A program made the position numbers and the translations under genes. Source: Desulfobulbales bacterium (GTDB lineage: Bacteria > Desulfobacterota > Desulfobulbia > Desulfobulbales > JAGXFP01). From it: DNA of 35,058 bases. How positions within the stretch are numbered: position 1 is the stretch's first letter; each line of letters opens with the position of its first letter. The notes beneath the pieces were generated by a model that worked only from the letters and a program-made list of their open reading frames with translations, had not been told where the DNA came from and searched no databases. Shown one piece after another: positions 2,608 to 33,256 of this stretch. The stretch spans positions 1 to 35,058 of the forward strand of contig JARGFN010000005.1 in the NCBI GenBank assembly GCA_029210665.1, written 5' to 3'.

Positions 2608-3203
2608 CAAGCCTGATGACCCAGCTCGGCGAAAGACTGGACCTGATAGGTGCTGACCGCGAGGTCGCCCCGACGCCATTCATCGGCCGACAGCCCGGCT
2701 TTCAGGCAAAGATGGGAGAGGAATTCGGCAACATCGGGAAGCTGTTCCCACACCTGGGGCAGAAAAGTGGCCGTCGCCCCGGCCTTTCGGATAATGACCC
2801 CATCGATGAACGGACGCAGGCGACTGATGAGATCATCGACATCATCGTACCGCAAGGGTTGCGGTTCCGAAAGAACGCTGACCTCAATATCTATTTCGTC
2901 CAGTTCCCCGGGGGGCACCGGTTCGAAACGGTAATCGTTGCAGGCGGCATTGACCGCGTTTTCCCGCACCCCGTCGATCAGGGGGCGCGTCCCGACCAGG
3001 CTGCCGATACAGCCGCGCAGCCGCCCCTCAAGATGCAGGGTGACGAACACTCCCTGTTTTTCGAGGAATACCGGATCCCGCGCAACATCCCCAGCCGTTT
3101 GCCGCTTTTCGGTCGGGACGGGAAGGTGCAGCTTTTCCATAATGGCTTTTCTGGCCGCATCAAGCAGAACTCGGCCCTGCTCCTCGTCAAGCCTGTTCGC
3201 CAT
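2607..3203 (-). CDS. amrA: AMMECR1 / AmmeMemoRadiSam system protein A
   Basis: A 198-residue AMMECR1-domain protein, close to the family's usual size. It carries the signature LRGCIGS (about residues 61-67) and the surrounding core (GVFVTLHLEGR; NAVNAACNDYRFEPV). In the AmmeMemoRadiSam set this protein accompanies a Memo-like protein and a radical SAM enzyme. Neither partner is in this window, so here it is separated from them and instead coupled to a metal-efflux gene through the TGATG overlap at 2607. The molecular activity of the family is not settled in my knowledge. Start ATG 3203 is preceded by a purine-rich GGGAGGTTGGGAG stretch, which supports it. Confidence 0.85.
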   Translation of the reverse strand: MANRLDEEQGRVLLDAARKAIMEKLHLPVPTEKRQTAGDVARDPVFLEKQGVFVTLHLEGRLRGCIGSLVGTRPLIDGVRENAVNAACNDYRFEPVPPGELDEIDIEVSVLSEPQPLRYDDVDDLISRLRPFIDGVIIRKAGATATFLPQVWEQLPDVAEFLSHLCLKAGLSADEWRRGDLAVSTYQVQSFAELGHQA

Positions 3204-3285
3204 CTCCCAACCTCCCTTCTGGCGCCTGCCTAATACCGCAGCGCGGATTTTTCCGAGGCACGGTATATCAACCGGGCCGAGAAGA

Positions 3286-3344
3286 GCTTATACCCACGGG
3301 GCATAAGTTTCGTTTGAGTCGACAAGCGACTCAACTCAGCTTTA
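3286..3344 (+). repeat. Family A REP-like repeat, copy 2
   Basis: Begins GCTTATACCCACGGGGCATA and continues to AGTTTCG. In this copy the inverted arms are GAGTCG...CGACTC in place of GAGCAG...CTGCTC. The arms have changed together and still pair, which points to selection on, or an origin from, a hairpin. Confidence 0.8.
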
Positions 3345-3345
3345 T

Positions 3346-3382
3346 AAAAAAAGCCCCCCGTCTTTTCGTAAAGACGGGAGGC
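3346..3382 (-). terminator. Intrinsic terminator downstream of the HesB-like gene
   Basis: On the minus strand, GCCTCCCGTCTT pairs with AAGACGGGGGGC (12 bp, one G-T) around a 6-nt loop, followed by seven T residues. It would end transcripts from the HesB-like selenoprotein gene after the repeat at 3444-3551. Confidence 0.85.
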
Positions 3383-3443
3383 CGTTGATGATCTTTGTAA
3401 CCGTTCACCGGCATAGCCGCCAAAGCCCCACAATCGCCGGACT

Positions 3444-3551
3444 GTAACCGTTCAGCAGTGCCGCAGGTTGCGGCAAGCGGGACGGCGATGCGTACTTTTG
3501 TACGTGAGCCGGGCTGATCGTCGCAAGATGTGGTGCTGCTGAACGGTTACA
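3444..3551. repeat. Family B palindromic element, copy 1
   Basis: A 108-bp imperfect palindrome with perfect 15-bp ends, GTAACCGTTCAGCAG and CTGCTGAACGGTTAC. The centre is GCGTACTTTTGTACG. The interior matches 18162-18271 in reverse complement (for example GGGACGGCGATGCGTAC, GTACGTGAGCCGGGC, GCAAGATGTGGTGC). It sits inside the probable 3' untranslated region of the HesB-like gene. Confidence 0.85.
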
Positions 3552-3578
3552 CGATCTTCACGACATCTGTTGCCTAAA

Positions 3579-3914
3579 TCAGCCGCATCCGGACCCGCAG
3601 CTGCCGCTGCTGCAACCGCCACCGCCGCCGCTGACCGGAATCGTGGAGGATATCGAAAAGCCGGACCGCATGCCGCTCTCGACAAAATCGACCTTGATAT
3701 CTCCGCAATCCTTCATCAGATCATTGTCCACCAGAAAGGTGAGACCATCCTGTTCCATTTTCGCATCGTTATCTTTTGGCTCATCCAGAGCCAATCCCAG
3801 AGAGGGACCGGATCAGCCGCCCTGCATCAAGGCGACGCGCAAAGCGGAATCGACCTTGTTCTGCGCCATATAATCCTTGAGATTGGATACTGCCAGATCG
3901 GTAACTTCCAACAT
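3579..3914 (-). CDS. HesB/IscA-like selenoprotein (in-frame UGA = Sec34)
   Basis: A 111-residue A-type iron-sulfur carrier-like protein. From ATG 3914, preceded by GGAGG 8 nt upstream, the frame runs to residue 33 (ending VALMQGG). It meets TGA at 3815-3813 and continues SGPSLGLALDEPKDND to a Gly/Cys-rich tail ending CSSGSCGSGCG. IscA proteins have GGCSG at this point, so the UGA replaces the first of the three conserved Cys residues; the other Cys lie in the tail. HesB-like selenoproteins with Sec at this site are a known bacterial family. A conventional caller would start at TTG 3794 and give a 71-residue fragment. A sigma70-type promoter lies at 4045-4074 and a terminator at 3346-3382. Sec insertion needs selABCD elsewhere. 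The family's exact role is uncertain. Confidence 0.9.
3791..3811 (-). promoter_or_regulatory. Candidate bacterial SECIS hairpin
   Basis: Starting two nucleotides after the UGA, CCGGTCCC can pair with GGGATTGG (8 bp, two G-T pairs) around a TCTCT loop. Position just downstream of the codon fits a bacterial SECIS element, but the loop lacks the usual early G. This is therefore a tentative call from hand pairing. Confidence 0.4.
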
Positions 3915-4044
3915 TTCAAAATCCTCCATACTTTATTAATAATATAAAAAATAATGGCTGAGTAAAGATCAGCATTGATATCCTTCCGGCCCATGATTCA
4001 CAAAAAGAGGCACCGGAGTCGAAAAACAGAAACTTTACGAGTAT

Positions 4045-4074
4045 ACTATATATATTCCCTAAGGAAACTGTCAA
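4045..4074 (-). promoter_or_regulatory. Sigma70-type promoter of the HesB-like gene
   Basis: On the minus strand, TTGACA (4074-4069), an 18-nt spacer and TATAGT (4050-4045), giving a leader of roughly 120 nt before ATG 3914. The rest of the 344-nt gap 3915-4258 is AT-rich and otherwise holds only repeat A copy 3 and the pfkA upstream region. Confidence 0.65.
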
Positions 4075-4156
4075 TGACGCGGCTCAATAAATTCTGTAAA
4101 TATTACCCGGCGGCAACCGTTTTTTGCTGATCCCTACCCCGCTTTTCTGCTAAGTT

Positions 4157-4214
4157 GCATATAGCTGCGTTGAGCAGCCTGCTCGTACGAAACTTATGCC
4201 CCGTGGGTATATGC
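4157..4214 (-). repeat. Family A REP-like repeat, copy 3
   Basis: Reverse-oriented copy: TTGAGCAGCCTGCTCGTACG followed by AAACTTATGCCCCGTGGGTA. It ends about 45 bp upstream of the phosphofructokinase start, within the divergent promoter region. Confidence 0.8.
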
Positions 4215-4258
4215 CGGTAAAAAAGCCTCCCGATCAGGAACATCACAGGTGATTCGAC

Positions 4259-5356
4259 ATGAACAGAATCGTAATCTCAACCGGCGGCGGAGATGCGCCC
4301 GGATTGAACGCGGTAATATATTCGGTGGTAAAGTCATCCCAGGCCAGGGGCTGGGAAGTATACGGCAGCAGAAGCGGTTACCGGGGGCTCCTTGAGCTTG
4401 ACGAACTGGTAAGGCTGACCGACGAGCAGGTTCGGGATATTACGCCCACGGGCGGCACCATCCTCGGTTCAACCAACAAAGGCAATCCCTTTGCGATGCC
4501 GGTGGAAAACCTGGCCGGGGAAATCCACTTACGGGATGTTTCCGACCGGATCATGACCAATTTCAACCGCATGGGTTTCTTATGTCATATCGCGGTCGGC
4601 GGCGACGGCAGTCTGGAGATAGCTCATCGGTTCGCCGTTGAGAAAGGAATGCCGGTAATCGGCGTACCCAAGACCATCGACAACGACCTGGAAGCAACCC
4701 AGATGACCTTCGGTTTCGATACCGCCGTCTCGACCGCCACCGAGGCCATCGACAAGCTTCACTCCACCGCCAAATCCCATGACCGGGTGCTGATCGTCGA
4801 GGTAATGGGCCGGGACTCGGGCTGGATCGCGCTCAGTTCCGGGATATCCGGCGGCGCCGATATCGTCCTGATTCCCGAAATTCCCTTTAACGTCGAAACC
4901 ATCTGCCGCAAAATCACCGACAACGAACTGCACGGCAAGCACTATGCCATCATTGTGGTCGCCGAGGGGGCCTGTGCCGAAAAATCGGGCCGAATCCACA
5001 AAAAAACCGATAAATCGGAGATCGGCCGCCAGGAACTGCTGCTTGGCGGCATTGGCGAATGGGTGGCGGCGAAGATAAGGAAGAATTCCGGCAAGGACAC
5101 CCGCTCAATGGTCCTCGGCCACCTTCAGCGCGGCGGTTCACCGACCACCTTCGACCGCCTCCTCGCCCTGCGTTTCGGCGCGGCGGCCGTAAGAATGGCG
5201 GAAAACAATCAATTCGACCAGATGGTTTCACTGGTCAACGGCGAAATGGAAGCCGTGCCTCTGGCCGACGCCATCAAGCAACGGAAAAAGGTGCCGCTCA
5301 GCAGCGATAAAATAATGACCGCCAGGGAAATCGGCATCTGCCTAGGTGATTATTGA
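4259..5356 (+). CDS. pfkA: 6-phosphofructokinase
   Basis: A 365-residue PfkA-superfamily enzyme that phosphorylates fructose 6-phosphate to fructose 1,6-bisphosphate in glycolysis. Seen motifs are STGGGDAPGLNAVI (7-20), GGDGS (114-118), PKTIDND (137-143, with the catalytic Asp), MGRDSGW and GHLQRGGSPTTFDR near the C-terminus. The residue equivalent to E. coli Gly104 is Gly (ATP type), while the one equivalent to position 124 is Lys (PPi type). This mixed pair is seen in the 'group III' phosphofructokinases. ATP is the likelier donor, but PPi cannot be excluded by eye. AGGTGA precedes the ATG. It lies divergent from the HesB-like gene and upstream of a Fur-family regulator. Confidence 0.93.
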   Translation: MNRIVISTGGGDAPGLNAVIYSVVKSSQARGWEVYGSRSGYRGLLELDELVRLTDEQVRDITPTGGTILGSTNKGNPFAMPVENLAGEIHLRDVSDRIMTNFNRMGFLCHIAVGGDGSLEIAHRFAVEKGMPVIGVPKTIDNDLEATQMTFGFDTAVSTATEAIDKLHSTAKSHDRVLIVEVMGRDSGWIALSSGISGGADIVLIPEIPFNVETICRKITDNELHGKHYAIIVVAEGACAEKSGRIHKKTDKSEIGRQELLLGGIGEWVAAKIRKNSGKDTRSMVLGHLQRGGSPTTFDRLLALRFGAAAVRMAENNQFDQMVSLVNGEMEAVPLADAIKQRKKVPLSSDKIMTAREIGICLGDY

Positions 5357-18161: not shown

Positions 18162-18271
18162 GTAAGCGATCACAGGGCACCACATCTTGCGGCGATCGGC
18201 CCGGCTCACGTACACAATGTACGCATCGCCGTCCCCCTTACCACAACCTGCGGCACCCTGTGATCGCTTAC
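18162..18271. repeat. Family B palindromic element, copy 3
   Basis: Perfect 16-bp ends GTAAGCGATCACAGGG and CCCTGTGATCGCTTAC, with centre CACGTACACAATGTACGCAT. The interior is the reverse complement of copy 1 with scattered, often paired changes. It starts 9 bp after the cytochrome stop and could serve as an mRNA-stabilising or terminating hairpin. Confidence 0.85.
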
Positions 18272-18273
18272 AG

Positions 18274-32405: not shown

Positions 32406-33256
32406 TTTACTTTCACTCTTTTAAAACTCGGGGGAAGTTCCAACTCGAAATCGACCGGCGAGGAGGGAAAGCCGGTCCGCCAGTCGTCCAGCCGGATCGT
32501 CAGTTCACCGGCGTGATCGCGGCTTACCGCGGTCAGACGACCGGGCAATCCGCACTCTCCGGCGCCGTACTTGTCATAAACGATCTCCAGCGCCGCCCGG
32601 CCGTCCTCATCAAGCTTCAGATCGCGGCGGATCAGCTGCCGGGCCGGATCGAAAAGCACCAGGCTGCGGCTGTTGCCGGGTTCGCGGGCAAGTTCCAGCC
32701 AGACACCGCGGCCCCGCTCGTCACCACCGGTCGAGAGGATCCGCACCTCGCCGGGCGCCAGTCTGCCGATCAAGGTATAATAAAGGGCGCCCGGCTCGAT
32801 CCCGGCGGGGGCAATTCGCCGGTAAGCCTCGGAATCGACATCTCCTTGATAAATCAGCCGGTCGGGGAACCGGACGAAATTGAATCGTTCGCCGTCGCTG
32901 ACCAGCGCGACCAGAGGCTGGCCGAGGGGGTTTATCCCGACCAGTTTCACGAAAGAGGGGGCCATGGCCTGCAGATAACCGTTCATCGTCCCCCGGTAAA
33001 ATCGCGAATCGACGGTGACGGTCAGATCGGCATCAACACTCTTGTCACATAGACGCTGACGGCCGGCCATCTCCTTGAAGGATTGCCTGGCCGCCACGCT
33101 CTCCGCCGCCGAAATCGGCAGCCGGGCCGGCAGACCGGCGCAGCCGGCCAAGACGATCGAAAGAAAGATAAAGCTTAGTTGAGCAGCTCGTCTGCTCGTA
33201 CGAAACTTATGCCCTTGCGGTATAAGAGACAAAACACGGCGAAACACGGCGATCAC
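32402..33256 (-). CDS. Outer-membrane-type lipoprotein, LolB/DUF4292-like candidate
   Basis: A 284-residue predicted lipoprotein. The lipobox is VLAGC with Cys39; the mature part reads VDADLTVTVDSRFYRGTMNG ... FVKLVGINPLGQPLVALVSDGERFNFVRFPDRLIYQGD, reminiscent of the LolA/LolB-like fold or DUF4292. Substrate binding of lipids or lipoproteins is a guess. It starts at GTG 33256, overlapping the TPR gene stop as GTGA, and overlaps the next gene at its end. Residues about 11-28 (LIPQGHKFRTSRRAAQLS), just before the hydrophobic signal segment, are encoded by repeat A. No start codon lies between the repeat and the lipobox, so the repeat-encoded part must be translated. Confidence 0.75.
   Translation of the reverse strand: MIAVFRRVLSLIPQGHKFRTSRRAAQLSFIFLSIVLAGCAGLPARLPISAAESVAARQSFKEMAGRQRLCDKSVDADLTVTVDSRFYRGTMNGYLQAMAPSFVKLVGINPLGQPLVALVSDGERFNFVRFPDRLIYQGDVDSEAYRRIAPAGIEPGALYYTLIGRLAPGEVRILSTGGDERGRGVWLELAREPGNSRSLVLFDPARQLIRRDLKLDEDGRAALEIVYDKYGAGECGLPGRLTAVSRDHAGELTIRLDDWRTGFPSSPVDFELELPPSFKRVKVN
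33172..33226 (-). repeat. Family A REP-like repeat, copy 4 (inside a gene)
   Basis: Contains GAGCAGCTCGTCTGCTCGTA then CGAAACTTATGCC, matching copies 1-3. Unlike those it lies within a reading frame and encodes part of the signal peptide region of the lipoprotein. Confidence 0.8.

Follow-up and report, generated by a model that had tools for sequence, protein, structure and literature searches.

A UGA-interrupted IscA/HesB gene in a Desulfobulbales bacterium very probably encodes a selenoprotein

The window that we analyzed (the whole stretch of 35,058 nucleotides of contig JARGFN010000005.1 from a Desulfobulbales bacterium) contains on its minus strand a frame that starts with ATG at 3914, reads 33 codons to a TGA at 3815–3813 and then stays open to 3582; the true stop is a second TGA at 3581–3579, which is included in the span 3579–3914. 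With the internal TGA translated as selenocysteine (Sec, U), the product has 111 residues. An earlier note on this DNA, made from the letters alone, had described this frame, its downstream sequence and the length of its product exactly as we obtained them by translation, and the GGAGG that it placed upstream of the start is found at 3927–3923. The standard code splits the gene into an ORF of 38 amino acids (ATG 3929, same frame) and one of 71 amino acids (TTG start, 3579–3794). The note expected annotation to retain only the latter; the truncated ORF does exist, but the gene need not be missed, because NCBI has a dedicated model for the family (NF038090). An ORF on the plus strand (3570–3947) is without a Pfam match and was taken as antisense noise.

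The note also framed the unit with a TTGACA-18-TATAGT promoter and a terminator, and both are present (Table 1). The TTGACA element occurs upstream at about the same distance in the relatives L059, L060 and L062. The terminator (3383–3352) lies approximately 200 nt past the stop codon because a dispersed palindromic repeat sits between them; in L059, a near-identical terminator hairpin follows the stop after a few tens of nucleotides. The repeat is approximately 157 bp long, and its 113-bp core has 48 matches in the 2.5-Mb genome, some of which represent fragments of a single copy or the palindrome itself. The presence of GATCTT on both flanks (a possible target duplication) together with the absence of the repeat from this place in L059 suggests that it is an insertion, MITE-like or REP-like in kind. 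The repeat, which has inverted ends TGTAACCGTTCA, is also found at 18177–18273. A second dispersed repeat of approximately 57 bp (CCCACGGGGCATAAGTTTCG...) is located at 1498–1554, 3285–3348, 4159–4214 and 33168–33226, with 49 genome matches among those listed, several of them in tandem or at contig ends. The gene order in the genus is Fur, PFK, the divergent selenoprotein gene, AMMECR1 and cation efflux.

Table 1. Features assigned at the locus, with coordinates in the window and the evidence for each.
Feature	Position	Strand	Evidence
CDS, predicted 111-aa IscA/HesB selenoprotein	3582..3914	-	Translation with TGA = U; NF038090, PF01521; predicted fold
Predicted Sec codon (UGA) for residue 34, aligned with the GGC(S/A)G cysteine of IscA	3813..3815	-	phmmer alignment to 1nwb, 1s98; codon counts in relatives
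bSECIS apical hairpin UUGGCUC-UGGAU-GAGCCAA, G at loop position 2	3776..3794	-	Synonymous freeze, covariation, model test, published rules
Ribosome-binding sequence GGAGG, 8 nt 5' of ATG 3914	3923..3927	-	Sequence
Gly/Ser/Cys-rich C-terminal tail GCSSGSCGSGCG, replacing the IscA CGC motif; Cys 101, 106, 110	3582..3617	-	Alignment of relatives
Promoter-like site TTGACA-18-TATAGT, 11/12 matches	4045..4074	-	Sequence; TTGACA kept in relatives
Intrinsic terminator of the gene	3352..3383	-	14-pair stem + T run
Dispersed palindromic repeat between stop codon and terminator, outside the CDS	3395..3551	.	48 genome matches to 113-bp core; absent here in L059

The readthrough protein was compared with the IscA/HesB families, as the note had proposed. 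It matches NCBIfam NF038090 (IscA_HesB_Se) over the entire model (1–101 of 101) with 145.4 bits, the cut-off being 85; the two halves match the same model in one frame with 37.5 and 77.3 bits, that is, each alone falls below the cut-off. The A-type carrier family PF01521 is also passed (39.5 bits; gathering cut-off 26.3). The cut-off of TIGR01911 (HesB_rel_seleno) is not reached (45.2 vs 66.35 bits), nor are those of the IscA, SufA and ErpA equivalogs (39.7 vs 150.6, 45.3 vs 136.2 and 35.7 vs 117 bits, respectively). The claim that the UGA stands exactly at the first conserved cluster cysteine is borne out by phmmer, which aligns U34 with the GGCSG cysteine of both Escherichia coli IscA (1s98) and Aquifex AQ_1857 (1nwb); the motif at this site, GGUSGPSLGL, fits the GG(U/C)(S/A)GPSLGL of NF038090. 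The AlphaFold2 model (47-row alignment) has a pLDDT of 84, and the Foldseek top matches of the predicted fold are IscA, SufA and [2Fe-2S] IscA (1r94, E = 1.5e-7; 1x0g, E = 5e-7). In E. coli IscA, two C-terminal cysteines in a CGC motif are cluster ligands. The tail of the protein described here has three cysteines with the spacing C-x4-C-x3-C instead; each is at least 90% conserved (alignment A2), and the tail, of low confidence from residue 97, is predicted to be disordered (pLDDT <50).

The NF038090 family is found over the cut-off in 110 of 116 related genomes, mostly with one internal TGA; the nearest named relatives are metagenome-assembled genomes and isolates labeled Desulfobacterales, Desulfobulbaceae and Desulforhopalus, so that the DNA probably comes from an uncultured bacterium of this sulfate-reducing lineage. 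Among 79 distinct sequences, the codon at the residue-34 site is TGA in 61 and TGC or TGT in the remaining 18 (Cys forms). Purifying selection is evident both 5' and 3' of the TGA; downstream of it, dN/dS is approximately 0.03 against a 95%-identical relative and 0.09–0.28 in the other comparisons that could be computed. The TGA does interrupt the standard-code ORF, as it would if a Cys-type IscA gene had become a decaying pseudogene with a real stop, but that reading, to which we give practically no credence, is refuted by the invariance of the TGA in 61 distinct homologues from many families of the order and by the strong selection downstream, to which are added a complete Sec machinery (vide infra) and the lack of any frameshift in the copies of close relatives, where we looked for one.

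Several relatives (L030, L045, L047, L048 and L070) have adjacent Sec and Cys copies of the gene. In the Cys copy of L030, a SECIS-like hairpin persists in which a single pair differs; this suggests a recent Sec-to-Cys change after duplication. A subgroup of Cys-only paralogues (L089, L091, L092, L098 and similar) carries an inserted loop of the CGCG type before the GF motif that is absent from the Sec forms (A2).

Bacterial SECIS elements have been described as having a stem of 4–16 bp, a loop of 3–9 nt with G in positions 1–2, a spacing of 16–37 nt and an MFE of ≤ −7.5 (PMC13188914). The hairpin at 3794–3776, which lies inside the span that the earlier note suggested for a bSECIS search (3780–3815) except for its last bases, satisfies all of these rules with a 7-bp stem, a 5-nt loop with G at position 2, a distance of 25 nt from the UGA and −10.1 kcal/mol, with a longer competing fold also present in this window. 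A search of positions 3000–4400 against Rfam matched no SECIS-type family, and comparative counts were therefore used to test the hairpin. The rules are satisfied by 50 of 60 Sec sequences vs 2 of 18 Cys sequences, and also by approximately 6% of random synonymous redraws. The relative synonymous entropy is 0.24 in codons +6 to +12 vs 0.78 elsewhere; within this segment, the synonymous positions of codons +8 to +12 (counted from the TGA) are near-frozen in the Sec forms (GCT in 60/60, CTG in 61/61, GAT in 58/61 and GAG in 60/61), whereas the same codons vary in the Cys forms. Across the relatives, pairing is possible in 95.8% of cells vs 14–54% when the helix is slid along the alignment; RNAalifold recovers the identical helix, and compensatory changes (CG to UA and GC to UA) are present, the covariation consisting of two sequences with both sides changed. 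We did not take a 41-nt MFE fold that begins just 5' of the UGA as the main SECIS, since the relatives do not have it in common; the 19-nt apical hairpin is the conserved element.

The source genome (2.5 Mb, 95.9% complete) was searched family by family. As the note had asked of the genome, selA (C202, 626 bits), selB (C215, 366 bits), selD (C196, 337 bits) and the tRNA-Sec gene selC (C191, 71.8 bits, anticodon UCA) are all present over their cut-offs. The selD gene (G000:C196:2402-3331, L027) has one in-frame TGA, so SelD of this genome is probably a selenoprotein too. The note had named a missing Sec machinery together with decaying copies in related strains as the finding that would speak against its proposal; the machinery is full and the close relatives show no decay. 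The same genes bear on a rival reading in which near-cognate readthrough, or a reassigned code, would place Cys, Trp or some other residue at the UGA instead of Sec. Cysteine does occupy the residue-34 site in homologues, but we consider such decoding very improbable and reject code reassignment: tRNA-Sec with its UCA anticodon, SelA, SelB and SelD are present, a SECIS-type hairpin is conserved in UGA forms only, and the gene itself terminates at TGA.

We conclude from sequence comparison, with a probability of roughly 0.96, that the product of this gene is a bacterial selenoprotein belonging to the IscA/HesB (A-type) family, for which the UGA at 3815–3813 would be read as Sec. SelB carrying Sec-tRNA would bind the hairpin at 3794–3776 in the mRNA, and the UGA would then be decoded as selenocysteine to give the 111-residue protein; we strongly infer this route from the machinery and the hairpin.

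As to function, Sec would occupy the place of the first cluster cysteine of IscA. Together with the tail cysteines it would most likely provide selenolate and thiolate ligands for an Fe-S cluster or for iron, and the protein may serve as an A-type carrier for an anaerobe with a NifU-type scaffold but without a Suf system. One NifU-type scaffold (NifU_N) is found in the 95.9%-complete genome, in which neither SufB/D (SUFBD) nor a second PF01521 protein was found; the selenoprotein is the only one. A further A-type protein of the canonical kind (PF01521 matches of ~50 bits or more, no TGA) is encoded in approximately 30 of 117 relatives; in the others PF01521 found none, and this absence is only suggestive because PF01521 misses many NF038090 members. 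The papers that we searched for the function of the family describe it only as 'not clear': in Methanococcus maripaludis, where mutagenesis and 75Se labeling revealed a HesB-like selenoprotein, its function is unclear and a disruption mutant retains nitrogen fixation (PMC11097638).

A distinctly less probable alternative is a selenoprotein whose Sec works in metal binding or in thiol/selenol redox chemistry and not in the carriage of Fe-S clusters. The altered tail, with C-x4-C-x3-C instead of CGC and predicted disorder, is in its favor and counts against cluster binding; the fold, the core motif and the position of the cysteine agree with a cluster-binding IscA, and the protein is the sole member of the A-type family found in the genome. 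We therefore regard Fe-S carriage with a selenolate ligand as a fairly probable role, judged from the alignments and the predicted model.

The outcome is one more well-supported selenoprotein, whose SECIS hairpin is defined by conservation at synonymous sites. Should it carry clusters, the protein would represent a natural Fe-S carrier with a selenolate ligand, apparently the sole A-type one in the genome, and Fe-S assembly would be tied to selenium supply. The broader proposition that the sole A-type carrier is a selenoprotein here, and perhaps in many relatives in which only the NF038090 form was found, so that Fe-S maturation would depend on selenium via a selenolate-ligated cluster intermediate, is one that we consider rather unlikely.

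Among known systems, the E. coli IscA, SufA and ErpA proteins (PDB 1r94, 1s98, 1x0g, 2d2a) share the fold and the position of the first cluster cysteine; they differ in having Cys for Sec and CGC for C-x4-C-x3-C, with approximately 26% identity. The hairpin resembles the general bSECIS model (PMC13188914 Fig. 2) in its 5-nt loop, G at position 2, 7-bp stem, 25-nt spacing and approximately −10 kcal/mol; its sequence differs in being family-specific, and no Rfam family fits it. HesB-like selenoproteins (TIGR01911) are indeed already known, as the earlier note stated, and are listed in Desulfovibrio, Geobacter and Syntrophobacter (PMC1794560), with UxGP given as their motif (PMC13188914). The protein described here shares with them a related fold and a U-S/A-G-P motif whose Sec coincides with the first cluster cysteine; by the TIGR01911 model, whose cut-off it does not reach, they form a sister subfamily. 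Its precise family is NF038090, with which it has in common the full-length match, the Sec/Cys pair at the same site and the kind of Gly/Cys tail found in the relatives that match the model. There is no substantive difference; the gene is an ordinary member of NF038090, that is, a further, clear and unsurprising member of an already catalogued selenoprotein family.
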